A stretch of DNA of 37,654 nucleotides from contig MEZH01000013.1 in assembly GCA_001775995.1 (NCBI GenBank), positions 1-37,654 of the forward strand. The letters are read 5' to 3'. Shown here one piece after another: positions 15,234 through 30,611 of the stretch. The notes under the pieces are model-generated. The model did not search any database. It was not told where the DNA came from and was given only the letters and a program-made list of their open reading frames with translations. The position numbers were made by a program, and so were the translations under genes. Position 1 is the first letter of the stretch. The number at the start of each line of letters is the position of its first letter. The stretch comes from Candidatus Bathyarchaeota archaeon RBG_16_48_13 (lineage in GTDB: Archaea > Thermoproteota > Bathyarchaeia > RBG-16-48-13).

Positions 15234-16319
15234 TTACTTTCGCTGAGTCATTCCTTCCATGCCGGCTAGCTGGTTTGGCCTAGACAATTTGGTGCGCTTT
15301 ATCTCCTCTATTAGTGCTGGCACAATATCTCGATAATCACCTACGACACCATAGTCGGCGTACTTGAAAATGGGAGCCTCAGAATCCGTGTTGATGGCCA
15401 TGACGCTTTTTGCTTCCCTGATTCCGAAGACATGTTGAGCTGAACCGCTAATTCCAACCGCAATGTACAGTATTGGTTTCACCGTTTTTCCTGTTTGTCC
15501 TATTTGGCGGTCTGCCGGCAGCCAGCCAGCGTCTACTGCTTTTCGTGACCCTGCCACAACCCCCCCAAGTTGGGAGGCAAGCTCCTCCAAAAGTCCAATG
15601 CCCTCTGGGCCTCCGATCCCCTTACCAGCGCTTACAATGCAGTCTGCTTTCTCCAGAAGCACTCTACCTAGTCCCAGACTTTGACTATTGACCAAACGGC
15701 CTCTGGGTTTTGGAACGTCAACCTCGGCCCTGATTATTTTTCCCATTTTCCCCTCATCGCGCTTGGGAAGAGGAAAGACGTTTGGTCGAGCGGTGGCTAT
15801 TTGGGGTCTCCTAAAGGGTGTTCTGATGGACGCTAACATGATAGCTCCAAACGGAGGCCTTATCTGAAGGACGTCTCTGCTTTCGGAATCCACGTCAAAT
15901 CCGGTGCAGTCAGCAGTTATCCCCACCCTCAAGATGTTCGCAATGCACGGCGCCATCTCTCGGCATCTCATGGTTCCAGCTATCAGTATGAGTTCAGGCT
16001 TGAAGCGCTTGGCGAGTTGGGCCATCACTGACGCATATATTTCTGGAAAGTAGGTGCCCAACGATGGTTCATCCACAAGTATTGAACGATCAGCACCATG
16101 GTAGAACATTTCCCTAGCGACTTTAGAAATTTTGGACCCTAAGATCACTCCCGTCACATCAACATCGAGCTTAGTCGCTAATTCCTTCGCTGGTGTGAGC
16201 ATCTGTAGGGACGCCTCAGAAATTCGTCCCCCGTGGATGTCGCCTAATACCCATATTCCCCGGTAATCTTTCTTTTCGACGTCCTCCCACTCAGGGCAAG
16301 ACGATTCCTTTTCAGACAT
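15234..16319 (-). CDS. etfA: Electron transfer flavoprotein alpha subunit
   Basis: The protein has about 361 residues. The C-terminal FAD-binding domain is textbook: GKGIGGPEGIGLLEELA, AVDAGWLPADRQIGQTGKTV, YIAVGISGSAQH and INTDSEAPIFKYADYGVVGD. The N-terminal half has MAPCIANILRVGITADCTGF and RPQIATARPNVF, the pattern of the FixB/electron-bifurcating ETF group rather than mitochondrial-type ETF. It is the last gene of the fixCX-etfBA run. ATG 16319 overlaps the etfB stop by one base; a GTG at 16322 would give a 4-base overlap. EtfAB collects electrons for the EtfC/X quinone branch. Confidence 0.96.
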   Translation of the reverse strand: MSEKESSCPEWEDVEKKDYRGIWVLGDIHGGRISEASLQMLTPAKELATKLDVDVTGVILGSKISKVAREMFYHGADRSILVDEPSLGTYFPEIYASVMAQLAKRFKPELILIAGTMRCREMAPCIANILRVGITADCTGFDVDSESRDVLQIRPPFGAIMLASIRTPFRRPQIATARPNVFPLPKRDEGKMGKIIRAEVDVPKPRGRLVNSQSLGLGRVLLEKADCIVSAGKGIGGPEGIGLLEELASQLGGVVAGSRKAVDAGWLPADRQIGQTGKTVKPILYIAVGISGSAQHVFGIREAKSVMAINTDSEAPIFKYADYGVVGDYRDIVPALIEEIKRTKLSRPNQLAGMEGMTQRK

Positions 16320-17161
16320 CACCTATGGGCCCCTCCGATAAGGTTGATGTCTTCATCCGCGTACTTCTGCATCAGCCACTTTGCTGCCTTTCCGGCATCA
16401 GGGTCCATGAAGACCTCGCGTTTGCGCTTGACCTCAGGAGTGTAATCGATCTTGGAAACCCATGTGGGTGATCCCTTCAGCCCTACACAGTTTGGGTTGA
16501 GCTTCAAGATTTCGTTGGTAACAATCTCAATAGGCTTCTCTGCTTTAGCTCTGATTTTGTAGATCAGTCTCACAGGCCTCGGTTCCCTGCTCTTCATCGC
16601 CACTCCTAGAACAGCTGGCAGAGGGAGATCGTAAATGGTCTTCTCATCCTCAAGCCACCTTTCGACAGCTATGAATCCGTTTTCTTTGATCTCGACGCTT
16701 CTCACGTAATAGAGGTATGGGAGGTCTAGCCATGAAGCAGTCTGCGCGGCTATGTGCGCGGTGGAGCTGTCAATCGTCTCCTGGCCGAAGATCACAAGAT
16801 CTAACTTGCCGCGCTGATTGGAGATCCTCTTTACGGCGTGAGCAAGGACGTAGCTCGTTGCCAGTGTATCAGCACCACCGTATATTCTGTCAGACACTAG
16901 AATTGCGCTATCTACCCCCATACCCAAGACCTGCTCCAGTCCCTCAATCGCTGAAGGAGGAGCCATGCTTAACGCATTCACTTCACCGCCATATCGATCC
17001 CTCAGATCTAGGGCAAACTCCACGGCGTCTAGGTCGTGAGGATTAACGATGCTGGGGACGCCCTCCCTTATCAATGCCCCCGTCTTGGGGTCAAATCTGA
17101 CATTCGAAGTATTGGGAACCCACTTGATGCCCACGAGGATCTGCAAACCCAACCTCTTCAT
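16319..17161 (-). CDS. etfB: Electron transfer flavoprotein beta subunit
   Basis: I start at ATG 17161 (MKRLGLQILVGIKWVPNT), preceded by GAGAAAGGGG, giving 280 residues; the TTG at 17176 overlapping the fixX stop is the alternative. Family hallmarks are the N-terminal IKWVPNT, NPHDLDAVEFALDLRD, the VLGMGVDSAILVSD and DTLATSYVLAHAV segments, and DLVIFGQETIDSSTAHIA. It pairs with EtfA, and in EtfABCX systems binds the second flavin and the pyridine nucleotide. Whether this enzyme bifurcates electrons cannot be decided from sequence reading alone. Confidence 0.95.
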   Translation of the reverse strand: MKRLGLQILVGIKWVPNTSNVRFDPKTGALIREGVPSIVNPHDLDAVEFALDLRDRYGGEVNALSMAPPSAIEGLEQVLGMGVDSAILVSDRIYGGADTLATSYVLAHAVKRISNQRGKLDLVIFGQETIDSSTAHIAAQTASWLDLPYLYYVRSVEIKENGFIAVERWLEDEKTIYDLPLPAVLGVAMKSREPRPVRLIYKIRAKAEKPIEIVTNEILKLNPNCVGLKGSPTWVSKIDYTPEVKRKREVFMDPDAGKAAKWLMQKYADEDINLIGGAHR

Positions 17162-17172
17162 ATGCCCCTTTC

Positions 17173-17475
17173 TCAAGTGAATCTGTATTGAATACCCTTA
17201 CCGCTTCTTGGATAGTTCCAGCTGATTGCATTTTGTGGGCAGACAATCCTGCATGTCCCGCACTCCAGACAACCTGAATAGCTGAACAGGACTTTTCCAC
17301 CTAGTAGATCGTAGCATTTGGCTGGACAGAGATCTATGCAAGGTTTGGTTTCGCAACCGATGCAACGATCAAAATTCACCGATATGTGCGGTGTCTCCTC
17401 CACGTCATAAAGGTCGACCTTCAGAATGTCGTCCACGTTGACGGGCTTTTTCGTGAGGTCATCCTTTTGGGTCAT
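17173..17475 (-). CDS. fixX: FixX-type ferredoxin-like protein
   Basis: The start is ATG 17475, overlapping the fixC stop by four bases (ATGA), not the track's 17562. The protein has 100 residues. Two cysteine groups are visible: CIGCETKPCIDLCPAKC and CLECGTCRIVCP; the second is a classic 4Fe-4S motif and the first is the conserved KPC...CP element of FixX. It passes electrons from EtfAB/FixC to quinone in ETF-quinone oxidoreductase complexes. It is coupled to fixC and etfB on both sides. Confidence 0.93.
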   Translation of the reverse strand: MTQKDDLTKKPVNVDDILKVDLYDVEETPHISVNFDRCIGCETKPCIDLCPAKCYDLLGGKVLFSYSGCLECGTCRIVCPQNAISWNYPRSGKGIQYRFT

Positions 17476-18785
17476 AATGTTCTCCCGATCTTGTACATGT
17501 CTTTGATCGCCGTCCAAGCGTCTGGGCCTACATCCTTCTGGGCGCCTCTGAGCGCTTTCCAAATGGTTGGACTTTCGAGTCCGATGTTGAATATTCTCCC
17601 CAAACCACTGTTAACCAGCCTTGGATATTGATCAAAGAAGTGAGGGTTGCGTCTGATGTATTCCAGTCCATTGTGTTTCCTTAACTCTCTGCCGATGAAT
17701 GATTCTTCCACCCGCCGACCGTATGCTGAGAGCATTTCGGACGTGAAGTCACCTTCTGCATGTGCCTTTGTGAAGGTTTCAGCCGCAAGGTAGCCCGAGT
17801 AGGCCGCCAAGTCCACACCCCGAATGGTCATGCCATTATTGAGAAGGACCCCAGCAGCATCGCCGACTACCAACAGCCCAGCGCCGCTCAATCTTCTGGG
17901 CATGAATCCACGCCAATATTCGGGTACCAGTTTTGCAGAGTATTCCAGCAGTTCCCCATCCCTCCACAGATGCTTGAGTTTAGGGTGAAGTCTAAAGTCC
18001 TCAAGAAGTCTGGAAATATGCCCGTTAGTTCTCTTGACGGCGTGAGAAAGAAACAGAACAAGACCAATGCTGACGCTGTCCCTGTTGGTGTAGACGAATG
18101 CACCTCCAGGTATATATCTGGTAACGCTACCAAGAAGAATCCATGCCATGCCCTCATCTTCCAGGCCAAACCTCTGGTTGACTCGCTCCGCGTCGAGCTT
18201 GATCGTCTCCTTCAATCCTATCGCGAGATCCTCTTGGCGTGGGACGTTCATTTGCCAAGCGCCTTCAAGAAGAAGCCTGTTAACGCCCTCGGCGTCGATG
18301 ACAGTGTCGGCGTAAACGGTGTCAGGTCCGGCCTGAACGCCTATCACCTTTTCTTTTTCGACTACCAGCCTGTCCACCCTCACCTCAGTCGCCACCAAAG
18401 CGCCGGCTTCTTCCGCTTTAGCCCTCATCCAGTTGACAAGTTCAGGCAGATACGTCGTGAAACTCTTGGATTCTCCGCCCCTGTATTCGATCGAGGTGAG
18501 TCCTTCATCAGAGACGAAGCTGAGTCTTTCAGCCTTTACCCATCGATGCACGGGGGCATCCTTCCTCAGCGATGGAAAGATTGCCTCCAGCGGTTCTGAA
18601 TAAACGCGGCCACCATACATGTTCTTGGTGCCAGCTCTTCGGCCCCGATCTATCATCAGCACCTTGAAACCCTTGCGAGCCAAGGTGAATGACGCCGAGG
18701 ATCCGGCAGGCCCAGCCCCAACGACGATTGCGTCGAACCTGTTGGTTGAAGGACTCGCGTTGGGGGTTGAGTGTTCGGTTGACAT
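17472..18785 (-). CDS. fixC: FixC / EtfC, ETF-quinone oxidoreductase flavoprotein
   Basis: The protein has 437 residues. The FAD dinucleotide fold is at the N-terminus (DAIVVGAGPAGSSASFTLAR, then FKVLMIDRG), with the second FAD motif LLVVGDAAGVLLNNG near residue 305. The geranylgeranyl-reductase/FixC layout is clear, and the FixX, EtfB and EtfA neighbours separate it from lipid reductases. In EtfABCX complexes this subunit delivers electrons to the quinone pool. The ATG at 18785 follows AGGTAA. The gene lies 33 nt after the DUF981-like membrane gene, probably in one transcript. Confidence 0.93.
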   Translation of the reverse strand: MSTEHSTPNASPSTNRFDAIVVGAGPAGSSASFTLARKGFKVLMIDRGRRAGTKNMYGGRVYSEPLEAIFPSLRKDAPVHRWVKAERLSFVSDEGLTSIEYRGGESKSFTTYLPELVNWMRAKAEEAGALVATEVRVDRLVVEKEKVIGVQAGPDTVYADTVIDAEGVNRLLLEGAWQMNVPRQEDLAIGLKETIKLDAERVNQRFGLEDEGMAWILLGSVTRYIPGGAFVYTNRDSVSIGLVLFLSHAVKRTNGHISRLLEDFRLHPKLKHLWRDGELLEYSAKLVPEYWRGFMPRRLSGAGLLVVGDAAGVLLNNGMTIRGVDLAAYSGYLAAETFTKAHAEGDFTSEMLSAYGRRVEESFIGRELRKHNGLEYIRRNPHFFDQYPRLVNSGLGRIFNIGLESPTIWKALRGAQKDVGPDAWTAIKDMYKIGRTL

Positions 18786-18801
18786 TACACGGTTACCTGG
18801 G

Positions 18802-18808
18802 AAAAAAA
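18802..18808 (-). terminator. T7 tract between the DUF981-like gene and fixC
   Basis: On the minus strand CCCCC is followed by TTTTTTT within the 33-nt gap. In archaea a T7 tract can terminate part of the transcripts, so it may lower etf expression relative to the first gene. Confidence 0.35.
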
Positions 18809-18818
18809 GGGGGAGAAG

Positions 18819-19421
18819 TTATGTGGCTGGAGCTGGTGGTTTGAGATGTCCAAATGTGGTATTTGCCCCTAAGTATAGCCAAGCCGCGGCATAGGCTATG
18901 GCGCCAATCGAGAAGAGCAACCTGAGCCATTTATTGTCACTGTGGGTAGCGGGAACCGAGAGAAACGTTGCTGCGGCCACCGACAAGTAGGCCAGAGCAC
19001 TCTTCAATGGGTCTGAGGTCATTCCATAGGCAAGAATTGAATATGCATCGACAACTAGGTAGGCGCCCAGCACGGCAGCGGAGTAAGAGACTGCTTTCAA
19101 CCCTCTATTCCAGAACAGCGCTGCTGAAAATCCCATGAGATTCAGGCCACCAAGGGCAGCGACCCCGCCAAAGAGTATGTTGGGACCTCCGCCTGGCGAA
19201 GTAAAGATCCAATTGAAGAGAATATGTGTGCCACTAAGGAAAAGAAATAGTCCGTTCAATCCAATAGCTATCGCTAGCCCCCTGCTCATGTTGTGTCCAG
19301 ATTCTTCGATGGCGTCGGTGGACGCCCTGTAAGGCAGTTTCCACAGGGCTATCCCTGACAGAATTCCGCTCGCTGCGATGCTGTACATCATAGTGTCAAG
19401 TAGGTCAAAAGGTGGTGCCAA
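18819..19421 (-). CDS. Six-helix membrane protein, DUF981-like
   Basis: The protein has 200 residues and about six membrane helices, with a TTG start set by a strong GGAGG at proper spacing. Its N-terminal pattern MAPPFDLLDTMMYSIAASGI, the central GGGPNILFGGVAALGGLNLMGF and the overall length resemble archaeal DUF981 membrane proteins, of unknown function. It is the first gene of the etf transcript, directly behind the promoter at about 19470. A role in anchoring or serving the Etf quinone oxidoreductase is an inference from position only. The family assignment is from memory of the pattern. Confidence 0.6.
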   Translation of the reverse strand: MAPPFDLLDTMMYSIAASGILSGIALWKLPYRASTDAIEESGHNMSRGLAIAIGLNGLFLFLSGTHILFNWIFTSPGGGPNILFGGVAALGGLNLMGFSAALFWNRGLKAVSYSAAVLGAYLVVDAYSILAYGMTSDPLKSALAYLSVAAATFLSVPATHSDNKWLRLLFSIGAIAYAAAWLYLGANTTFGHLKPPAPAT

Positions 19422-19653: not shown

Positions 19654-21090
19654 CTAAAGGATAAGCAATGACGCCAACACTGGGGCTAGTCCTAGGCCCA
19701 GGGCTACAGTTAGCACAGTGGTCAAAACAACAGCTATCACTGCGGGATCTCGGGGGTTCTCCCTCACCTCGTTGCGGTCATCTGTTCCTCGAGTTGATAG
19801 GACGTATCGTATTATCTGCGCGTAGTAACCGACAGACACACCGGTATTGATTACTGCGATCAGGGCAAGCCAGGGGGCTATCTCTATGACTGAAAAGAAG
19901 AGGTACATGAATTTGCTCCAGAAGCCTATTAGAGGGGGCATGCCAATGAGGCTGAACACCAATATGACGATGCAGGATGATAAGATCGGCATTTTTCTCC
20001 ATAAGCCAGCAATGCCATCTAGATCCGTCCCCAGACCTTTCTCGGCCAAATAGGATAAGGCGACAAAAATGCCTGTTGTAGCCAGGGCGTATGTTGCCAG
20101 ATGTAGGGCAATTCCCTGAGCCCCGATGGTCGCGCTGACTCCGCTGCCGCCAGCTGCGAAACCGACCAACATGTATCCTACATGCGCAAGGCTGCTGTAT
20201 CCCATCATTTTTTGAAAGTTTCTCTGAATCAAAGCCGCTACGTTGCCGAATGTCATCGTCACGATTGCGAATGCAGCGAATAGGAAAAGCCAACTGACGC
20301 CCAATTTCGGAGCGAAGGGATAGACTATCCGCAGAAGTGCGGCGATGCCTGACACCTTCACTATGCCCGCAATATAGGAAACCAAGATTGGATTTACGCC
20401 TCCGTATACATCAGGTAGCCAACCGTGGAAAGGGACAATTCCGACTTTGAAGCCGAAAGCTGCAACGATCATTATGATGGCTGTCAATATCGCTTGCATG
20501 TTGGCGGGGGAGGCGGCTTGCACTATCGTGCGTATGTCGGTGGAACCGGTCACGCCGTATAGGATTGCAATCCCAAAAAGCAGGAAGGCAGAGGCGACAA
20601 TGCCCATCAAGGCGTATTTGGCAGCACCTTCGAGAGAAGCCTCATCTTTCTTTATTCCAACGAATGCGTAGGAAGCCACGGAAACCAACGCCCAAGCCGC
20701 CAGAAGAAGAACCAAATCGTTAACTGCTATTATATAGTAAACCCCTACTGTGATAATAAGGATCAGAGAGAAATAGCTGGGAGCGGTCGTCCATTTTGAG
20801 GTATGGGTGAAAGAGGCAAGCGTTACAAAAAGGGCTCCAAGACTGGTAATAGTGAATAGAAAGGCGCCGTAGGCGTCTATCTTCAAGGCCCCATCGTAGA
20901 CGTACGTCGGGGGGTTGCCCAATGTCAGAGACAGCAATCCAATTGAAAGAGCCAGAGCGAGAAGAATCGCGGCTAGACACAACCAACGGCTTATTCTCTT
21001 CTTCAGATAGTATTCAATCGTCGGCGTGGCTAGTCCGATACCTCCGAGCAACAACCCAAGTATATCCAATAGGATTTCAACGGTCAACAA
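19654..21090 (-). CDS. nuoN: Complex I antiporter-like subunit N
   Basis: The protein has 478 residues and about 14 membrane helices. Ion-channel motifs include FKVGIVPFHGWLPDVYGG and AGIVKVSGIAALLRI (lysines of TM7 and TM8) and GMPPLIGFWSKF (TM12 lysine). The helix-5 Glu of most NuoN is not seen: the corresponding stretch is LLAAWALVSVASYAFVG. The gene is last in the nuo operon, beginning 6 nt after nuoL with a TTG start behind AGGA. It moves ions across the membrane, driven by quinone reduction. Confidence 0.95.
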   Translation of the reverse strand: MLTVEILLDILGLLLGGIGLATPTIEYYLKKRISRWLCLAAILLALALSIGLLSLTLGNPPTYVYDGALKIDAYGAFLFTITSLGALFVTLASFTHTSKWTTAPSYFSLILIITVGVYYIIAVNDLVLLLAAWALVSVASYAFVGIKKDEASLEGAAKYALMGIVASAFLLFGIAILYGVTGSTDIRTIVQAASPANMQAILTAIIMIVAAFGFKVGIVPFHGWLPDVYGGVNPILVSYIAGIVKVSGIAALLRIVYPFAPKLGVSWLFLFAAFAIVTMTFGNVAALIQRNFQKMMGYSSLAHVGYMLVGFAAGGSGVSATIGAQGIALHLATYALATTGIFVALSYLAEKGLGTDLDGIAGLWRKMPILSSCIVILVFSLIGMPPLIGFWSKFMYLFFSVIEIAPWLALIAVINTGVSVGYYAQIIRYVLSTRGTDDRNEVRENPRDPAVIAVVLTTVLTVALGLGLAPVLASLLIL

Positions 21091-21096
21091 GTCTTC

Positions 21097-23313
21097 CTAA
21101 ATCACCCCCAACAAGAGCAACAGAAGGAGTGCGTTGAACCCTAGCAAGAGGAGCAGAAGGTAGTCGTTGACCCTGCCTGTCTGAATCCTTCTGAAAGCGT
21201 TTGAAAGAAGGAGCGACGCCTTGGCGACCACAAGGTTATAGCCTTTATCTATGACTGCGGTTTCAAAGGCCTTGAATATGGAATCAGAAGCAAGCACGAA
21301 CGCTCTTGGCATCGCGCGATGATAGCCTCTGTCTATTACGCCTGTTTCAAAATATTTGGAGCCCACCGAAGAAGCCTTGGCTGCAAACCAGGGTATGATT
21401 CTATGATAAACGCGATCCACAACCCCTACATCCACGTATTTGAAAAGTCCATTCGCCAAATTGCTGGCTCCTTGGACAAAGATCTTGTAGTAGATCGAAT
21501 TCAAGTACCACCTATTGTACAGAAAACTCTGAATTCCCCTGGAGACCTTGTTCTTAGCCAATCTTTCGCCTATTTTCAAGTTTGATCCTCGTTTTCCATA
21601 TGTCAGGTAGGCCGTGCCCACGCCCACGGAAACCATGGCCAAGGACGTCCCCGTGAGAAGAGGGTCAAGCTCAACGCCAATGCTGAGGGGTTTCTCGGTC
21701 ATCGCCAACGCGTTCTTTATCAGTGCAGAGGAGATATCGCCTCCAACGAAAATCCAGACTACGCCAATCGCAACGGTCACAATTGCTAGCAATGCGTAGG
21801 GGGCGAGCAGCATTGGGTTTGCCTCATGCAATTCATTTTCCCCGGCCATGTGCTTTACTCTTTCAGAGGGCTGTGTCAGGAAGGTCTTCATTATGAGTCT
21901 GATCGAGTAGAAGGCTGTAAGAGCGATGGTTATCACCATCAACATCAACGGGACGAACAAATTGGTCTGATACACTATCTCTAGAAGATGATCCTTCGTC
22001 CAGAAACCCAGTAGAGGAGGTACTCCTGAGAGGCTTAGCGCCGCGATGAGCATGGTTATGAAGGTGACCTTCATGAACTTCGACAGGCCCCCCATATCGT
22101 CCATGTACCTAGATTCCACCGAGTGGATTACGGCTCCAGCCGCGAGAAACAGCGACGCCTTGAAGATTGCGTGGCTCATCAGGTAATTGAAGGCTGCAAT
22201 GAAGCCGCTGCTGAAATCAGCGATTAGCCCCGAAGCGCCACATGCCATGAAGATCAAGCCCAATTGAGAGGCTGTTGAAAACGCCAAGACCAATTTGAGC
22301 TCTTTCGCCACGATTGCCTGCGTCGCCATCAGGAAAGCTGTGAACGCTCCCAAGTAGACGATGACCGTAAAATAGAGTCTCACGTCGGCGGCAGCGCTGG
22401 GCACGATAAGGTTCAGTTCCCTCGATGCAAGATAGATTATGGGCGTGAATCGAAGCATGAAGAAAATGCCTGCTTTCACCATTGTTGCAGCGTGTATTAA
22501 CGCGCTGACGGACGTTGGGCCGGTCATAGCTGTGACGAGCCATTCGTGAAAAGGAAATTGGGCGCTCTTGGCCATGGCGCCTAGCGTAAAAGCGAACATG
22601 AACGGAAGCAGCATCCCTCTTACCGCCAGTTCCTGACCCCACAGTGCAACATTGCTAGCCATCGCGGGAATGCTTAGCGAATTCGTAAGCATGTAGATCA
22701 CCCCAATGCCGGCAATTAATCCGACATCCCCCAATCTCGTGAAGACGAGGGCTCGAACACCACTGTGGCTCGGTGAGAAGTCCATGGGGATACCCAAGAC
22801 CTTTCTGCCTTCGTCCCCCACCCACTTGTCCTTCTGATCGGTGAACCAATGCCCTATGAGGGCGTAGGAGGCTAAGCCTGTGCCTTCCCATCCAATAAAC
22901 ATCAGAAGTAGATTTCCTGCCATGACTATGAGTAGCATGCTTGCGGTGAAGAAACTGAAAAAAAACCAGTACCGAGTGAGGCCCGCGTCACCTTCCATGT
23001 ATTTGAGGCTGTAGAAGCCTATGAGAAAACACAGCCACGTGACGATAAAGGCCATGAATGCGCCCAAGGAATCGACAAATATCTCAACCTGAACCTGAAG
23101 CGATGGCACCCAAGGAACGGAAAAATGAACTACCCCACTTTCAAGGACCGTCTTCAGCAACAGCGTTGAGGAAAACGCGCTGAGGAATAGCATGCCGACA
23201 GCAACATATCCTCGCCATTTATCCAACTTCAAAACTGACAGAAGAAGTACGATGGCCGCTCCAACATAAGGGGCCGCCCATGTTGCGTTGGCTATTATTC
23301 CGTCTAGTATCAA
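21097..23313 (-). CDS. nuoL: Complex I antiporter-like subunit L, with repeated lateral-helix segment
   Basis: The protein has 738 residues, longer than the common 600-670. Core motifs are present: GWEGTGLASYALIGHW (TM5 Glu), KSAQFPFHEWL, PTSVSALIHAATMVKAG and GVPPLLGFWTKD (Lys-Asp pair on TM12). The C-terminal region before the last helix has three tandem units of exactly 28 residues, each with a VDRVYHR/IDRGYHR/IDKGYN core, where other NuoL proteins usually have one, followed by the standard RRIQTGRVNDY. The start is probably TTG 23313, 10 nt after the nuoM stop. It is the distal pump subunit, whose lateral helix clamps M and N. Confidence 0.96.
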   Translation of the reverse strand: MILDGIIANATWAAPYVGAAIVLLLSVLKLDKWRGYVAVGMLFLSAFSSTLLLKTVLESGVVHFSVPWVPSLQVQVEIFVDSLGAFMAFIVTWLCFLIGFYSLKYMEGDAGLTRYWFFFSFFTASMLLIVMAGNLLLMFIGWEGTGLASYALIGHWFTDQKDKWVGDEGRKVLGIPMDFSPSHSGVRALVFTRLGDVGLIAGIGVIYMLTNSLSIPAMASNVALWGQELAVRGMLLPFMFAFTLGAMAKSAQFPFHEWLVTAMTGPTSVSALIHAATMVKAGIFFMLRFTPIIYLASRELNLIVPSAAADVRLYFTVIVYLGAFTAFLMATQAIVAKELKLVLAFSTASQLGLIFMACGASGLIADFSSGFIAAFNYLMSHAIFKASLFLAAGAVIHSVESRYMDDMGGLSKFMKVTFITMLIAALSLSGVPPLLGFWTKDHLLEIVYQTNLFVPLMLMVITIALTAFYSIRLIMKTFLTQPSERVKHMAGENELHEANPMLLAPYALLAIVTVAIGVVWIFVGGDISSALIKNALAMTEKPLSIGVELDPLLTGTSLAMVSVGVGTAYLTYGKRGSNLKIGERLAKNKVSRGIQSFLYNRWYLNSIYYKIFVQGASNLANGLFKYVDVGVVDRVYHRIIPWFAAKASSVGSKYFETGVIDRGYHRAMPRAFVLASDSIFKAFETAVIDKGYNLVVAKASLLLSNAFRRIQTGRVNDYLLLLLLGFNALLLLLLLGVI
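21190..21441 (-). repeat. Three in-frame 84-bp repeat units in nuoL
   Basis: The units encode residues 625-652, 653-680 and 681-708 of NuoL. They start KYVDVGVVDR, KYFETGVIDR and KAFETAVIDK, with no gaps between them. The DNA has diverged, so the duplication is old and maintained at protein level. Confidence 0.8.
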
Positions 23314-23322
23314 GGAGATCTT

Positions 23323-24876
23323 CTACCTTAGCAAGCTCCTGACAAGATTGGAAAGTGGGTCTATGAAAATCGCCGGCCAAAAGAAGAGCAGTATTCCAAT
23401 TATCGCTATCACTATGATAGGAAACAGGAGGTCTCGTCTTTCCTTCGTGGGTTCATTGGAAATCTCTGGAGAGGGAGGCCCGAAGAAGATGCGTTTGATT
23501 GTGATGAAAGAATATGCCGTTGAGAGCCCTATGGCGACCAGCAGACCTATCACGAGGAGCACGAATGCAGTCGCGCCAATTTCGCTGGCCCGAGCTACTG
23601 CTCCAAAGACTATGAGCACTTCGCTCCAGAGGCCGAGCGAGGGCGGCACGCCAGTTATCTGCATGAACCCAATGAGGGCCAAGGCGGCAGTTACCGGCAA
23701 TCGAACAGCTAGTCCACCCATCTTCCGTATGCTTCTTAACCCGTGAAGCTGAACGATTAGAACACCCGCAACAGAGAAGAGCACAGCCTTTCCGACAGCA
23801 TGTGTTGCGTATTGAAGCATGGCTCCTGAGACACCGAGGGTGTTGAGACTTGAGATTCCCAGGAGCAAGTAGCCCATCTGGGAAATGCTGGAATATGCCA
23901 GCATCCTCTTGAAATCATCTTGAGCAAGCGTCATCAAACCTCCATAGATCATTGTTATCAGCGACAGCACAATCAGATACACCGAGATCGAAGCAAAAAC
24001 GGTCGGAAACAATAGGTAAGCGATCCTCACTAGAGCATAGCCACCAATTCCAATTAGGTTAGGCGAGAGAAGGGCCGAAACAGGGGTTGGAGCCTCAGCG
24101 TGAGCGTAGGGCAACCAAATATGAACGCCGAAGACTGCCATTTTCACCAATAGGCCAACAATCAGAATCAAGGCAACATAGAAAATAATGTTCTGCGGGA
24201 GAAGTTCGCCTATTCCGATGTTGAAGGTCAAGGTTTGCATATTCAGTATGTCAAAAGTCTTTGCGTTAAATCCTACAGTTATCGCTCCAATTAAGAAAAG
24301 CAGAGCACCCACGTGAGTCCAGATCAGATACATCAGCGCAATCCTCTCTCGAGCTCCGTATCCATAAAATGCAATTAGGAGAAAACTGGGGACCAGAGTC
24401 AATTCAAGGAATATGTAGAACTCCGCGAGGTTAGTGGATAGGGCAGTCCCAAGCATGGCTGACGCGAACATGATGTAGAGCATGTAATAGATTCCCCAGG
24501 ACGGTTCGTGTGTGCCCTCTTTCTGCATGTCCTCAAAGCGGTGCTCCATGTAGGGAAAAGAGAAGACAGCCACCATGGTTGTGACTAGGACTATGGAAAA
24601 AGCAATGGGCCCGCTCAGTCCATCCAGCAACATAGAAAAGGAACCCAAAAAGGGCTGACCAAAATATGGGGGGTCTACGACACCTTCGTTGAGTCCTGGG
24701 AAGAACGTGAACCCAACGATAACAATCAGCGGATAGAGCAAGAGCAACGTGCTCAAAGTCGCCACCGTCTTGGCTCGAATTCTCCTTCCGATTACGGGTA
24801 GGAGCACTGAAGCCAAAAAGGGTACCACAACTGAGGTTAGTAGTATAGGTTGGTCCAGTTTCAACATTTTTTTCAC
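23323..24876 (-). CDS. nuoM: Complex I antiporter-like subunit M
   Basis: The protein has 514-517 residues: GTG 24876 overlaps the nuoK stop by four bases, and ATG 24867 is the alternative. About 14 helices are visible. The TM5 Glu (YIFLELTLVPSFLL), TM7 Lys (VKMAVFGVHIWLPYAHAEAP) and TM12 Glu (GVPPSLGLWSEV) are present. The TM8 position that is Lys in E. coli NuoM (K265) reads LLSPNLIGIGGYALVRI, without lysine. Gene order here is K-M-L-N, unlike the bacterial K-L-M-N. Confidence 0.95.
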   Translation of the reverse strand: MKKMLKLDQPILLTSVVVPFLASVLLPVIGRRIRAKTVATLSTLLLLYPLIVIVGFTFFPGLNEGVVDPPYFGQPFLGSFSMLLDGLSGPIAFSIVLVTTMVAVFSFPYMEHRFEDMQKEGTHEPSWGIYYMLYIMFASAMLGTALSTNLAEFYIFLELTLVPSFLLIAFYGYGARERIALMYLIWTHVGALLFLIGAITVGFNAKTFDILNMQTLTFNIGIGELLPQNIIFYVALILIVGLLVKMAVFGVHIWLPYAHAEAPTPVSALLSPNLIGIGGYALVRIAYLLFPTVFASISVYLIVLSLITMIYGGLMTLAQDDFKRMLAYSSISQMGYLLLGISSLNTLGVSGAMLQYATHAVGKAVLFSVAGVLIVQLHGLRSIRKMGGLAVRLPVTAALALIGFMQITGVPPSLGLWSEVLIVFGAVARASEIGATAFVLLVIGLLVAIGLSTAYSFITIKRIFFGPPSPEISNEPTKERRDLLFPIIVIAIIGILLFFWPAIFIDPLSNLVRSLLR

Positions 24877-25178
24877 CCTTTGAACTTTCTCAGCTCATAG
24901 ACATCCAAACGCTTCTTGTGTTGGAACATCAGTATTGCGATCGAAACCATTATTCCCACATCGGCAACCGCGATGCCAATGGCCAGCAGTGCTATAACCC
25001 CTCCGGCTGCAGGGGAAGTTGACGATGAGGCGAGGGTAAGAAGCATGAGCACAGCAGCATTGAAATTGATCTCCGCGGACAAGAGCATCCGAAGCATATT
25101 CCTCTTTGTGATTATCCCGTATAGACCGATCCCAAACATGGCAGCTGATAGTCCCAACAATATGTATATTTCTTCCAT
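24873..25178 (-). CDS. nuoK: Complex I membrane subunit K
   Basis: The protein has 101 residues and three helices. The ATG at 25178 overlaps the nuoJ stop by one base; the track's TTG at 25181 is unnecessary. The conserved helix-2 acid is kept (LLSAEINFNAAVLML), while the helix-3 acid is Asp rather than Glu (IAVADVGIMVSI). Both positions lie on the ion path joining the quinone end to the pumps. Confidence 0.93.
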   Translation of the reverse strand: MEEIYILLGLSAAMFGIGLYGIITKRNMLRMLLSAEINFNAAVLMLLTLASSSTSPAAGGVIALLAIGIAVADVGIMVSIAILMFQHKKRLDVYELRKFKG

Positions 25179-25675
25179 CAAATCTCTTCCCGTCTAGCCA
25201 GTGTTATGGCTTCAATTAGTGTCGTGACCAAGGTCAACGCTGCGACAACTAACGCGAACCAGTATTTCTGAGTCAATAAACTCGCGAGCTCACGATAGCT
25301 AATGTTGATTGGTGCCAAGGTCTTCCCGAAATATTCACCGAATATTACTAGAAGTAGAAGAAACGTCAACAACACAGAGACGGCAGCGATGATCCTGAGC
25401 GGGCGTTCAATCAAAGGGGTCTCCTCGAACATAGTTATGGAGAAGAGAATGAATACAACGGCTGCGCCTATATACACTGCCACGTGAAAGATTGCCACAA
25501 ATGTGAATCCTAATAGTGCGAAAATGGACGCGATAGATATGCCCATAATCCCCAGAAAGAATGCTGAGTAGACCAAAGATTTGTGCTCAACTACGATGAG
25601 CGAAGACAACAAAGTCACTGCAGCCAGCACGACAAGGATCATAAGGCTGGGATCGAAAAGTTCAACAGGACTCAT
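25178..25675 (-). CDS. nuoJ: Complex I membrane subunit J
   Basis: I start at ATG 25675 (MSPVELFDPS), behind GAGGT, rather than the track's 25729. The protein has 165 residues and five helices, with the typical AIFHVAVYIGAAVVFILFSI segment of TM3. It overlaps the nuoI 3' end by 14 nt, indicating translational coupling. Confidence 0.92.
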   Translation of the reverse strand: MSPVELFDPSLMILVVLAAVTLLSSLIVVEHKSLVYSAFFLGIMGISIASIFALLGFTFVAIFHVAVYIGAAVVFILFSITMFEETPLIERPLRIIAAVSVLLTFLLLLVIFGEYFGKTLAPINISYRELASLLTQKYWFALVVAALTLVTTLIEAITLARREEI

Positions 25676-26135
25676 ATCTGAGACCTCTTTTCTCGTCAAA
25701 TAGGGGTTTAACCCTCGGCTTATCCTCAATGACTGGATCTTTACTGAAATCTTCTGGTTTCAATACCTGCTCACCAAGAGTGTAGCATGCTGCATCGTGA
25801 GAACCAGACATTTCGAGAGCGTCAACAGGGCAAATATCAACGCAGAACCCGCAGAATATACATCTTTGGTATGTTATTCCGGGATATTTTCTGACATCAA
25901 CTTTGACCATTTTTAATGCGTTTGACGGACAAATGCGGGCGCATAATGTGCAGCTTATGCATATGTCGATGCGAAGCTTTAACATTCCTCTGTAATTCGG
26001 TCCAAGGTCTTGAAGAACCTCAGGGTATAGTACGGTCATTCGAGGTTTGAAGATGTGCTCTATTCCAGACCTGATTGCTTGCATGTGTCCTGTCAGGCCA
26101 AGCAGCTTCCCCGCTCTACGATCTTTGGGTTTCAT
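25662..26135 (-). CDS. nuoI: Complex I 2x[4Fe-4S] subunit I
   Basis: The start is ATG 26135 (MKPKDRRAGK), two bases after the nuoH stop; the track's longer N-terminus runs inside nuoH and is spurious. The protein has 157 residues. Two cluster motifs are clear: CISCTLCARICP and CIFCGFCVDICP. It passes electrons to the cluster in NuoB. With no nuoEFG in the locus, NuoI is probably near the electron entry point and may take electrons from ferredoxin. Confidence 0.95.
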   Translation of the reverse strand: MKPKDRRAGKLLGLTGHMQAIRSGIEHIFKPRMTVLYPEVLQDLGPNYRGMLKLRIDICISCTLCARICPSNALKMVKVDVRKYPGITYQRCIFCGFCVDICPVDALEMSGSHDAACYTLGEQVLKPEDFSKDPVIEDKPRVKPLFDEKRGLRYESC

Positions 26136-26137
26136 AA

Positions 26138-27154
26138 CTAGAACCCCAGCACCCACACAATGCCGAGTGAGAGAGCCACAGACGCCACAGACAATACGAA
26201 GAGGGTGTGCCATCCCAGTTTCAGCACTTGGTCTATACGGAATCTTGGGTATATGCTCCTCATGAATACGCATAAGCCCATCACAAGGAGACCTTTGACA
26301 AAAACGGCCACTCCCGGAAGAATTGGATTCAAGGTCAAGGGCCAAATAAGAGGATTCCAGCCCCCCAAAAAGACCTCGGCGAAGAACAAGCTTAGGACGC
26401 TCAGTTTTGCGTACGATGCCCCAAGACAGAGCACGAAAATTATGCCGCTGTACTCGGTGTACGGTCCAATCACTAGTTCGCTCTCGGCCTCGGCAACGTC
26501 GAAGGGAAAACGCGCCGTCGTCATGAGCATCGCAACAAAAAACGTTATGGCCGCCAATGGGTTGAGCGCGATCCCCCAGAGACCAGATGATTGTCTTCCC
26601 ACGACTTGTACCAGATCTAGGGTGTCGTATGCTACGGCCATAGCCAAAATGGAAACAAACATCGGAATCTCATAAGCCATCATTAGGTAACCGTCTCGCA
26701 GGCTTCCGATGAAGGAGAACTTGTTGTTGCTTGACCAGCCCAGGAGAAGCATGAATATTGGAGTTATCGTCAGCAGCGCCAGGACCAGGAGAAGACTCAA
26801 ATCGCTGAAAAAAGCGGCGTAGCTGTTGCTTAGTGGAATGGCTACCACCGGCAACATAGATAGCGTGAACAAGAAAATTGGAGAAAGGATGAATGCTTTT
26901 TTATCAGATCCCTTCGGAATAATGATCTCGGTGAAGAGAAACTTCAGCAGATCCGCTACTAATTGAGGTAGGCCTCCCAATGATTTCAAAACGTATAGGG
27001 GCCCATACCTCAACTGAACTTTAGCTGTGAGCTTTCTCTCGAACCATGCAATGAATATGATGACAAGGAATGTTGTCAGAAGCCCAGGAAAAATAAGGGG
27101 GATGATGATCGTGGGGGACAGTAATATCTGCAGCAACTGCTCAACAACATTCAT
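26138..27154 (-). CDS. nuoH: Complex I membrane subunit H
   Basis: The protein has 338 residues and eight helices. Family motifs are IAWFERKLTAKVQLRYGP, the acidic loop RFPFDVAEAESELVIGPYTEYSG and a late RIDQVLKLGW. NuoH forms the membrane part of the quinone chamber and the start of the ion path. The ATG lies 3 nt after the nuoD stop. Confidence 0.96.
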   Translation of the reverse strand: MNVVEQLLQILLSPTIIIPLIFPGLLTTFLVIIFIAWFERKLTAKVQLRYGPLYVLKSLGGLPQLVADLLKFLFTEIIIPKGSDKKAFILSPIFLFTLSMLPVVAIPLSNSYAAFFSDLSLLLVLALLTITPIFMLLLGWSSNNKFSFIGSLRDGYLMMAYEIPMFVSILAMAVAYDTLDLVQVVGRQSSGLWGIALNPLAAITFFVAMLMTTARFPFDVAEAESELVIGPYTEYSGIIFVLCLGASYAKLSVLSLFFAEVFLGGWNPLIWPLTLNPILPGVAVFVKGLLVMGLCVFMRSIYPRFRIDQVLKLGWHTLFVLSVASVALSLGIVWVLGF

Positions 27155-27157
27155 GAT

Positions 27158-28318
27158 TTATCTGTCAGCCTCCGGTGGAAAGTAGTCTAGACTACCGTAA
27201 ACGGCTGGGATATCAGCCAATTTCTGGCCCAGCAGTGCGTGTTTGAAGGCTATCAAGTTCTTGAACGAGGGCGTCACGATCCTGAATCTATAAGGGTGAG
27301 TCGAACCATCGCTCACTAAATAGTGGAAGAGTTCGCCTCGGCTCGCTTCGACGCGTGAAACTGCCTCACCTTTTGAGGGCTTTAGCCCAGAAAACAGAGC
27401 AGGAAATTTCACTGAACTCCTCTTTTCAAACCGTGTTCTTGAAGGTACAAGATCCAAATATCTGTCTGCAAGGATCGAGCCGTCAGGTATTTTGCCCAGG
27501 ATTTGCCTTATCATGCTGATGCTTTGTTCGATTTCGCCTATTCTTACCAGAAGTCGAGCATGGGCGTCGCCTTCATCTCTGACTACTACCTCAAAGTCCA
27601 AGTCAGGGTAGATGCAGTAGGGCTCAATTTTCCTTACATCGTAAGCAATGCCGGAAGCTCTGAGGTTCGGACCGACTACCCCGATTCTAGCCGCATCAAT
27701 CCTATTGATGACTCCAACTCCTTTCAGGCGAGCCAATGTCACTGGATTGTGGACGAAGATGCGGTCATAGTCTTTGAGCCTTCTCTCCATGTAACTGAGG
27801 GCCTTCAGGGCGTCATTCCTGAAGTCTTGAGGCAGGTCTCTTCTGACGCCACCAGGTATGATATATGAATAGCTGAGTCTGGCCCCAGTAAGGCGTTGAG
27901 CTAGCTCTATGAATGGCTCCCTGTCCCCAAATGCCCACATCAGCATGGTGGTGGAGCCGATCATATTCCCGTGAATGCCCATTCCGTAGAGGTGACTATG
28001 AATTCTGTTGATCTCGGCCAACAATATCCTCAAGTATTGTGCACGAAGTGGCGCATCTATTCCGAGCAGTCTTTCTAATGCTAGGACGTAACCTAGATTG
28101 TGATTGGCTGTATCAGGCAACGAAGTCCTTTCCACTAATGGTATGATTTGCACGTAAGTCTTAGTTTCGGCTATCTTCTCTACAGCTCGATGCACGTAGC
28201 CGATATTTGGCTCGAAATTGAGGATAACGTCTCCATCCATCTCGGCGACAAGCCTCATATGCCCAGAGCCGGGGTGTTGAGGCCCAATTAGGAGTTCTAA
28301 GGTTTGCTCTTCACTCAT
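27158..28318 (-). CDS. nuoD: Complex I quinone-site subunit D
   Basis: The protein has 386 residues, separate from NuoC. It begins with GPQHPGSGHMRLV, a variant of the usual GPQHPATHGVLR, and the segment PLVERTSLPDTANHNLGYVL replaces the DRxDY stretch whose Tyr contacts quinone in characterised enzymes. The C-terminus keeps DIPAVYGSLDYFPPEADR. These variants match my recollection of thaumarchaeal NuoD. The ATG overlaps the nuoC stop by four bases. With NuoB it forms the site where quinone is reduced. Confidence 0.95.
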   Translation of the reverse strand: MSEEQTLELLIGPQHPGSGHMRLVAEMDGDVILNFEPNIGYVHRAVEKIAETKTYVQIIPLVERTSLPDTANHNLGYVLALERLLGIDAPLRAQYLRILLAEINRIHSHLYGMGIHGNMIGSTTMLMWAFGDREPFIELAQRLTGARLSYSYIIPGGVRRDLPQDFRNDALKALSYMERRLKDYDRIFVHNPVTLARLKGVGVINRIDAARIGVVGPNLRASGIAYDVRKIEPYCIYPDLDFEVVVRDEGDAHARLLVRIGEIEQSISMIRQILGKIPDGSILADRYLDLVPSRTRFEKRSSVKFPALFSGLKPSKGEAVSRVEASRGELFHYLVSDGSTHPYRFRIVTPSFKNLIAFKHALLGQKLADIPAVYGSLDYFPPEADR

Positions 28319-28752
28319 GCGTCTATTCCTTCGGTCCTTATCGTGTAGCTCTTCCTGAGTGGTGGCTCGCCTTCGAAGTCCTCCGGAAGCAGGAGTCTTG
28401 CCATCGCTTCACGTCCTCCGAAGTTTATTCCCATGAGGTCCGTGGTCTCTCTTTCGAGAAACTCAATACTTGGCCAAACGGCGACCAGCGTGTGGATATT
28501 GGGCTCCTGACGACTGACCGTAGTTCTGATTTCAAGGATGGTCTTCGCCAACTCCAAGTCTTCAAATGACGAAACATGATAGATGACATCTATTCTGTTC
28601 TCTTCTGGGTAATCTGTGGCGGTAACCGATATCACATGATCAAATTTCAAGTTTTTCAGCAGGTGGGCTGTTTCCAATATCTTTGAGGCGTCAACCGTGA
28701 TCGATAACCCATTCTGTTTCGTTAAGAGGACCCTTGTCACAATGCCCTTCAA
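28315..28752 (-). CDS. nuoC: Complex I subunit C
   Basis: The protein has 145 residues from TTG 28752. The 30-kDa subunit signature FLERETTDLMGINFGG and the DYPEENRIDVIYHVSS region are clear. The frame stays open upstream to within nuoB with no ATG/GTG/TTG, and the helix usually found at the N-terminus (LKTEELSGLISDKL) lies there, so a rare start (such as CTG at 28791) is possible and the annotated N-terminus may be short by about 13 residues. Confidence 0.9.
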   Translation of the reverse strand: MKGIVTRVLLTKQNGLSITVDASKILETAHLLKNLKFDHVISVTATDYPEENRIDVIYHVSSFEDLELAKTILEIRTTVSRQEPNIHTLVAVWPSIEFLERETTDLMGINFGGREAMARLLLPEDFEGEPPLRKSYTIRTEGIDA

Positions 28753-28780
28753 CTTGTCAGAGATCAGGCCAGAAAGTTCT

Positions 28781-29269
28781 TCAGTTTTCAGGGTGAGGTG
28801 TCACCTTTTTTCTAATTTTTTCTTGCTCCATCGTCAATGATTTCAGAATTGCCTCAGGCCTTGGAGGGCATCCAGGTATGTAAACATCAACGGGGAGTAT
28901 TTCATGAGGTCTGACTATGTTGTAGCTGTTCCAGAAAATCCCGCCATCGATGGCACATGCACCCATAGCAAAAACGAACTTGGGCTCAGGCATCTGTTCG
29001 TAAACAATCTTTGCCGCTTCAGCCATTTTCTTGGTTACAGTTCCTTCTATGAAAAGAACATTGCATTGGCGCGTCCCCACGAAGGGCAGGAAGCCGTATC
29101 TTTCGGCATCGTATCTTGGGCAGAAACTTGCCGCAAATTCTGACCCACAGCAAGCCGTAGTGAAGTGCACTGGCCAAAGAGAGAATGATGTCCCCCAATC
29201 TTTGAGGGAACTCAAAATCTTTTGTCGGGCTAACGCCCTCGACAATCTTCTTATGACCGCATCGAACAT
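28781..29269 (-). CDS. nuoB: Complex I [4Fe-4S] N2 subunit B
   Basis: I start at ATG 29269 (MFDAVIRRLS), two bases after the nuoA stop; the GTG at 29302 lies inside nuoA. The protein has 162 residues. All four N2 cysteines are present: the CC pair in TACCGSEF, then MGACAIDGG and IPGCPPRPE. It is the last cluster before quinone. Confidence 0.95.
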   Translation of the reverse strand: MFDAVIRRLSRALARQKILSSLKDWGTSFSLWPVHFTTACCGSEFAASFCPRYDAERYGFLPFVGTRQCNVLFIEGTVTKKMAEAAKIVYEQMPEPKFVFAMGACAIDGGIFWNSYNIVRPHEILPVDVYIPGCPPRPEAILKSLTMEQEKIRKKVTPHPEN

Positions 29270-29271
29270 GT

Positions 29272-29673
29272 TCAGCGTTCCTTTCTTTCCTTGATTTTCC
29301 ACAGCTCAATCCTATTCGCCGCATCCAAACCAAAAACTAGGGGGGGAGCGAGCATGAGCATGATCAATACGAAGAGTTGGACGACGCTATAGTACATCTC
29401 GTGCGTTTCCATCAAGAGAAGAAACAAATAGAAGAAAATGGGCTCAACGGTGAGAAAAACCACCAAGTAGGCATAGTATTGCATGGTGAACCAACCTCTC
29501 CCTCTTTTGGAGGGGGGGTTACCCGCTTCAAACCTCGCCTCCTTTATGGTCGAGTGTTTTGGAGGGGCAACGAGTCGGCTTATGGCGTAGCTCAGCAAGC
29601 CGGCACCCAAGCCACCGGACAGAGCCAAGAGAAAGGTGACCAAAGCATTATAGTCCAACGCGAGTTGACTCAC
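29272..29673 (-). CDS. nuoA: Complex I membrane subunit A
   Basis: The track start at 29748 lies inside the upstream gene. I prefer GTG 29673, which follows GGGGGC at good spacing and 29 nt of intergenic DNA, giving 133 residues. There are three helices with the family loop KEARFEAGNPPSKRGRGWFTMQYYAY (a variant of the usual YECG..P) and VEPIFFYLFLLL. It is the first structural gene of the nuo operon. The upstream bases ATATTTATG could be a weak extra promoter. Confidence 0.85.
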   Translation of the reverse strand: MSQLALDYNALVTFLLALSGGLGAGLLSYAISRLVAPPKHSTIKEARFEAGNPPSKRGRGWFTMQYYAYLVVFLTVEPIFFYLFLLLMETHEMYYSVVQLFVLIMLMLAPPLVFGLDAANRIELWKIKERKER

Positions 29674-29702
29674 AAATTGCCCCCATAAATATCTCGAATA
29701 GG

Positions 29703-30611
29703 TCAGAGAACTCCCTTGTATACCCGCACCGCCGGGCAACCCATGCATTGACCCTCAATGAATTGGACGCATTCAGCACATTTTCTACCACATGGTGCTA
29801 TATCTTCCTTCGCAGGGAAGACCCTTATATGGAATGCATCAGTCACGAGCGGCGGCTCAGAGCTGTGAACCGAGACGAGTTCTGTATCTTTGATGCCCTT
29901 AAAACTCTCAACGGTCGAGTTCAGGGTGCTCTGATCTTCGCCCCAGAGGAGAGTGAGTATGTTTGCTTTGTCAGTAGGCTTCAAGATCATCAGCACACGC
30001 GGGCAACTGAGCAGCATTTTCTCCAGTTTTTGGCGCGCATCAGAGTTCTTGCTCTCGAACGCTGCCAAAGTTGTCTTCATGCCCAGTTCGCTAAGGTTGA
30101 TCCCTGGCTTCAAGGAAAGGATCTTTCCGCTTACTAGACGATTCAATTTTGCTATTACGGTTGGTCGAGAGGACCCGATTTCCCTTGAAATTTGGAGGAC
30201 GGGCTTCCTGGAATCTCTTCGAAGTGCTTCAATGATCTTGAGGTCGATGGCATCTAGTTTCGTGGCACGACCCGGGACACTTGCATGAATTGTTCCATGC
30301 AATTTAGCATATTGAAGGGCTTCGTTCAACGAATAATCCGTTCTTTCGAGCTTGAGTCCTACCTTGGAGAAAAGCAAGGCTGCTATTAGATTTTCAATTT
30401 TAGTCGAGCCGACTCCGAAAATCGTTCTCAGTTCGTCGCTGATAGCTCTCTGGTTATTTTCGATTTCGTCACGGCGCAGAAGATTCTTTCCTTCGATGTG
30501 AACCAGGAAACTTTCTGCCGTCTTCTCATCGAGCATGATGTTCAAAGCCTCTCGAATGGAATCCAACACAAGTCCATCGAAGGTTTTGACCAGTTTTGAA
30601 GTGGTCTTCAT
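29703..30611 (-). CDS. Lrp/AsnC-like regulator with N-terminal helical domain and Cys-rich tail
   Basis: The protein has 302 residues in three parts. Residues 1-115 are helical (KTFDGLVLDSIREALNIML, IFGVGSTKIENLIAALLF) and resemble the NitrOD5-type domains of Thaumarchaeota. Residues about 120-260 are an AsnC-style winged helix (DAIDLKIIEALRRDSRKPV, REIGSSRPTVIAKLNRLV) plus a ligand-type domain. The C-terminus has five cysteines, CGRKCAEC...GQCMGCP, like the DUF3795 motif, and could bind zinc or an Fe-S cluster. It is directly upstream of nuoA and overlaps the preceding gene by four bases, so it probably controls this locus in response to a metal or redox signal. Confidence 0.75.
   Translation of the reverse strand: MKTTSKLVKTFDGLVLDSIREALNIMLDEKTAESFLVHIEGKNLLRRDEIENNQRAISDELRTIFGVGSTKIENLIAALLFSKVGLKLERTDYSLNEALQYAKLHGTIHASVPGRATKLDAIDLKIIEALRRDSRKPVLQISREIGSSRPTVIAKLNRLVSGKILSLKPGINLSELGMKTTLAAFESKNSDARQKLEKMLLSCPRVLMILKPTDKANILTLLWGEDQSTLNSTVESFKGIKDTELVSVHSSEPPLVTDAFHIRVFPAKEDIAPCGRKCAECVQFIEGQCMGCPAVRVYKGVL

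Follow-up and report, generated by a model that had tools for sequence, protein, structure and literature searches.

Two additional 28-residue units in the lateral helix of an archaeal NuoL from a complex I cluster with a single NuoM

In complex I, NuoL contributes a lateral amphipathic helix that links TM15 to TM16 and runs alongside the other antiporter subunits. The role of this helix has long been debated, with piston, coupling rod and brace as the alternatives. The window analyzed here, a stretch of 37,654 nucleotides in total, encodes a NuoL whose lateral helix is extended by tandem repeats, together with one NuoM and one NuoN.

The nuo cluster of the window comprises 11 genes in the order A-B-C-D-H-I-J-K-M-L-N, every one on the minus strand. 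Genes for NuoE, F and G were not found within this cluster. Its parts are:
24873..29748, minus strand: nuoK, J, I, H, D, C, B and A, the remaining genes of the 11-gene cluster
23323..24876, minus strand: nuoM, the sole NuoM of the cluster
21097..23313, minus strand: nuoL, 738 amino acids, TTG start
19654..21090, minus strand: nuoN, the closing gene of the cluster

The NuoL protein scores 418.3 bits on TIGR01974 (NDH_I_L, cut-off 407.5) and NuoM scores 268.7 on TIGR01972 (cut-off 263.8), and nuoL lies inside the cluster. The genome (G000, 75% complete) contains six antiporter proteins in total, corresponding to two clusters of three. The second cluster, on contig C4, is a distantly related complex I with its own M, L and N and a standard two-unit NuoL (L008).

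A self-comparison of NuoL residues 590–712 resulted in a BLOSUM62 sum of 92 at a lag of 28 residues. Lag 56 was the runner-up with a sum of 24, and all remaining lags were negative. Across lags of 5 to 69, the top sum in 1000 shuffled sequences was 24 as well, which rules out a chance or low-complexity repeat. The first-pass annotation had described three tandem repeats of 28 residues in the lateral-helix region (residues 625–708, correctly mapped to positions 21190–21441). The repeat as such stands far above the shuffles, but the count has to be revised: in register there are four units of 28 residues each, and the three repeats described before are U2, U3 and B, offset by seven residues from the natural boundaries. 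Together with the final transmembrane helix the units are located as follows:
21421..21504, minus strand: unit A LNSIYYKIFVQGASNLANGLFKYVDVGV, residues 604–631, canonical first lateral-helix unit, aligns with NdhF1 (6hum_F)
21337..21420, minus strand: unit U2 VDRVYHRIIPWFAAKASSVGSKYFETGV, residues 632–659, extra unit, common to three-unit relatives
21253..21336, minus strand: unit U3 IDRGYHRAMPRAFVLASDSIFKAFETAV, residues 660–687, extra unit, window lineage only
21169..21252, minus strand: unit B IDKGYNLVVAKASLLLSNAFRRIQTGRV, residues 688–715, canonical final unit with the QTG element
21103..21171, minus strand: last transmembrane helix TM16, residues 715–737 (AlphaFold2), very Leu-rich

U2 and U3 are the closest pair of neighbors with 13 of 28 identical residues, compared to 7 of 28 for A/U2 and 8 of 28 for U3/B. 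Unit A is a weaker repeat (A-U2 BLOSUM 32), yet in alignments it falls on the canonical unit found in other NuoL proteins. At the DNA level the identity among the units is only 0.32–0.49. The copies are thus old, and an assembly artefact in the window is excluded by this 32–49% identity; the protein repeat has been retained while the DNA copies diverged, just as had been supposed. In the codons of the Leu-rich final transmembrane helix a further repeat with a 33-bp period is visible (21112–21174).

An AlphaFold2 model of the window NuoL (64 sequences, mean pLDDT 89) shows a nearly continuous lateral helix in two segments, residues 604–664 and 669–710, followed by TM16 (715–737), i.e. the arrangement of lateral helix and TM16 expected for a NuoL. 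At residues 660–670, the start of U3, the confidence drops below 50, and the helix may be broken there. The two-unit paralogue from the same genome was modeled as a control with a single 55-residue helix (602–656) and TM16 at 659–678. In the models, the extra units add about 52 residues to the lateral helix; of the two outcomes considered in the first-pass annotation, a longer helix or a separately folded module, the prediction agrees with the longer helix. In three- and four-unit helices the hydrophobic periodicity has its maximum at 91 degrees, which is near 7 turns per 28 residues, so that an added unit keeps the hydrophobic face in phase. Foldseek matches were NuoL/ND5 chains of solved complexes, and a sequence comparison with solved chains yielded none with extra units.

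The canonical lateral helix (HL) and TM16 of NuoL, ND5 and NdhF occupy the same position and comprise the A and B units with a QTG-type end. NdhF1 (6hum_F) aligns through unit A of the window straight into its own final unit. The standard form consequently has two units and not one, as had been assumed for other NuoL proteins; the expectation that the window exceeds the standard by two units holds nonetheless, with U2 and U3 added to A and B. A longer NuoL helix is known from 2M complex I, in which, according to accounts of the work of Chadwick et al. (2018), a second NuoM is accompanied by a NuoL insertion of similar length (PMC9040806, PMC6606698, PMC7117926 and, for archaeal 2M complex I, PMC7300363). 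The insertion is reported as about 26 residues, i.e. about one unit. The window shares the lengthened helix, but has two inserted 28-residue units and only one NuoM in its cluster, hence more helix but no added pumps. In the bacterial Ca. Manganitrophaceae, Complex_I_1 and 2 likewise have a helix insertion and no additional pumps (PMC9040806); there the insert is a single one of 26 residues, in contrast to the two units of the window. One cluster among Complex_I_1/2/3 of these bacteria has five pumps, and the pumps are partly MrpD-like (PMC9040806). The helix insertion of the window is thus of a kind known from 2M complex I, but its antiporter-independent form is unusual.

To place this NuoL among its relatives we determined the distance between the RW(Y) anchor and the terminal G in about 120 archaeal NuoL sequences. 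The distances cluster at ~27 (some sequences), 53–56, 79–83, 104–111 and 131–136 residues; a few sequences with misplaced end anchors (lengths 58 and 62) were counted as two units by eye. The lengths are quantised in steps of ~27–28 residues, corresponding to 1 to 5 units. In a Thermoproteota MAG from Guaymas (L043), neighboring nuoL units are identical over 86 nt at a lag of 84 bp, starting at about position 2355. This exact 84-bp tandem duplication, seen on one MAG contig, is the gain of a unit caught as it happens.

A quick maximum-likelihood tree of the NuoL core without the helix, calculated without bootstraps, places a three-unit NuoL from a Bathyarchaeota MAG (L039) as sister of the window and another three-unit NuoL (L040) next to them. 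The organism itself probably belongs to Bathyarchaeia, given that the sister NuoL and a close relative of the NuoL of its class-mates stem from Bathyarchaeota records. Some 20 other relatives have three units as well. U2 is therefore common to the relatives, and the gain of U3 (or its equivalent) falls in the lineage of the window. Accordingly, the extra length is a lineage trait, a possibility raised before, with respect to U2 but not to U3: this archaeal clade has long had one unit above the standard, and it is the fourth alone that sets the window lineage apart. On the same tree the four-unit state requires at least five changes, and unit number as a whole fifteen; one sequence marked as one-unit (L118) has a C-terminus without the usual end motif and an unsure count. 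Four-unit forms have several independent origins. U2 has its top score (78.6) with the middle unit of the relatives. U3 scores 42.3 with this middle unit, 32.9 with A and 23.1 with B, a pattern that would be expected of a middle-unit copy that has diverged. The conservation of the middle unit (0.40) is close to that of unit B (0.41) and TM16 (0.39), with D2, Y5, H6, P10 and E25 as near-invariant residues. Both U2 and U3 of the window retain all five, so the two extra units are probably functional.

We compared unit number and antiporter-like genes in clusters with enough flanking sequence; the numbers of antiporters obtained in this way are affected by how complete the MAGs are and by gene neighborhood. 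G016 was left unscored because of two interleaved clusters. One unit goes along with two antiporters in G019, G037, G045, G013 and a separate upstream cluster of G222. Two units and three antiporters are found on the window genome's own contig C4, in G015, G052, G061, G062, a dozen more genomes and ~30 relatives, and three units and four antiporters in G020, G030, G036, G038, G040, G055, G179 and G403. The last of these had appeared to combine four antiporters with two units, but its full C-terminus reveals three. Four units and five antiporters are present in G034 (N-L-M1-M2-M3, with M2 50% identical to M1). The number of units is at least the number of antiporter genes minus one in all readable clusters. 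A strict relation of one unit per extra antiporter does not hold: antiporter number gives only a minimum for the number of units. Helix length is a ceiling on the number of antiporters and does not imply that number.

Several further clusters were observed during this survey. The cluster of G034 (C5, 7087–15462; L119) is of a '3M' type: its antiporter-like genes number five (N-L-M-M-M), and its NuoL has four units. At L169, L170, L171 and L176, compact clusters resembling complex I have only two antiporter genes (L, M), and their NuoL has a single unit. The one-unit NuoL-like proteins L172 and L173 have no other antiporter gene nearby and possibly belong to a different complex. In the literature available without subscription we found no description of the 1-to-5-unit series and its bound on antiporter number, of the surplus-helix state across Thermoproteota or of a five-antiporter cluster with three NuoM.

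The window, with four units and three antiporters, is one of many cases of a lengthened helix with no additional antiporters. In the cluster of G043, three antiporters accompany a five-unit NuoL. Surplus units are combined with three antiporter proteins in the whole genome in G102 (99% complete), G159 (98%), G268 (97%) and G025 (92%), and four units in G296 (98%) and G042 (96%). About 20 relatives of the same type as the window have three or four units, and most of them encode M, L and N alone in the whole genome. G034 and G042 belong to the same genus and their NuoL proteins are 84% identical, both with four units, but G034 has five antiporters and G042 three. The single M of G042 is directly followed by genes that we take, from their sequence, to encode an A-type ATPase, on a part of a 445-kb contig that contains no gaps. 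An additional gene family common to three-unit clusters was not found, the shared items being mostly shadow ORFs, and no extra membrane gene turned up in these clusters.

A segment of 28 residues corresponds to ~42 Å of helix, and the spacing of antiporter subunits is close to this value. On balance, we think that the lateral helix consists of whole modules and that the surplus pair of the window braces the membrane arm past NuoN, over K/J/A/H, instead of serving extra pumps. Each module would roughly span one antiporter subunit. Modules would be gained by in-frame 84-bp tandem duplication with the hydrophobic face staying in phase. As the window complex encodes NuoM, L and N only, two modules would exceed the need of M and N. 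These could extend the brace beyond NuoN across the proximal subunits K/J/A/H and contact them via the conserved D-x-x-Y-H...P face, thereby stabilizing the membrane arm. A modular brace is suggested by analogy to MrpA of Mrp antiporters, whose amphipathic HL braces the neighboring antiporter subunit, in a complex that is not redox-linked and has fewer antiporter-like subunits than complex I (PMC7419157). On the other hand, two extra modules add ~84 Å, possibly beyond the reach of the proximal arm, and the confidence below 50 at residues 660–670 and the 75% completeness of the window genome also speak against this reading. A natural series of 1 to 5 units that bounds but does not dictate 2 to 5 antiporters fits a modular brace, and it offers ready-made test cases: the G034/G042 pair and the window clade uncouple helix length from pump number.

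The surplus units could also be leftovers or products of neutral slippage, if duplications within a repetitive amphipathic helix are tolerated. Such an origin would fit the frequent shifts in unit number along the tree and the sisters G034 and G042, of which G042 has a four-unit helix but is without the two additional NuoM genes of G034, and E. coli tolerates insertions of 6–7 residues at some helix sites (PMC3274701). We nevertheless regard it as not very likely, because the lengths are strictly quantised, three units are kept across many families and the middle unit is conserved like the canonical units, which argues against pure slippage. That conservation also means that the middle unit must contact something, and the partner might be a single NuoM (or NuoN) product that is built in repeatedly, so that three genes would yield four or five pumps. 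In clusters that do have four or five antiporter genes, units equal antiporters minus one, and a four-unit brace would fit five subunits. We know of no complex I, however, that uses one antiporter gene product twice, and in about 20 three-unit relatives M, L and N of that complex are each encoded by exactly one gene. Repeated incorporation is unlikely in general, and quite unlikely in the specific form in which NuoM or NuoN copies fill the four-unit helix and helix length, not gene number, sets the number of pumps.

It is very improbable that the window encodes part of an ordinary 2M- or 3M-type complex I with additional antiporters unlinked or missing from the assembly. The genome is indeed incomplete and holds the second complex I cluster on C4, but the antiporters of C4 are matched by its own two-unit NuoL. 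The nearest relatives G061 and G062 combine a three-unit NuoL with M, L and N alone and have their other antiporters in separate clusters. Near-complete relatives with surplus units and just three antiporter proteins argue against missing genes as well. With regard to the window, a brace extended past NuoN remains our preferred reading.

Just downstream of nuoN, on the same (minus) strand, positions 15234–19421 encode a DUF981 membrane protein followed by flavoprotein, ferredoxin and Etf-type genes. A counterpart of the DUF981 gene common to the clusters of the relatives was not found. Judged by sequence, the four genes beside it presumably encode a FixC-like flavoprotein, a FixX-like ferredoxin and an EtfBA-like pair, and possibly form a second route by which electrons reach the quinone pool.
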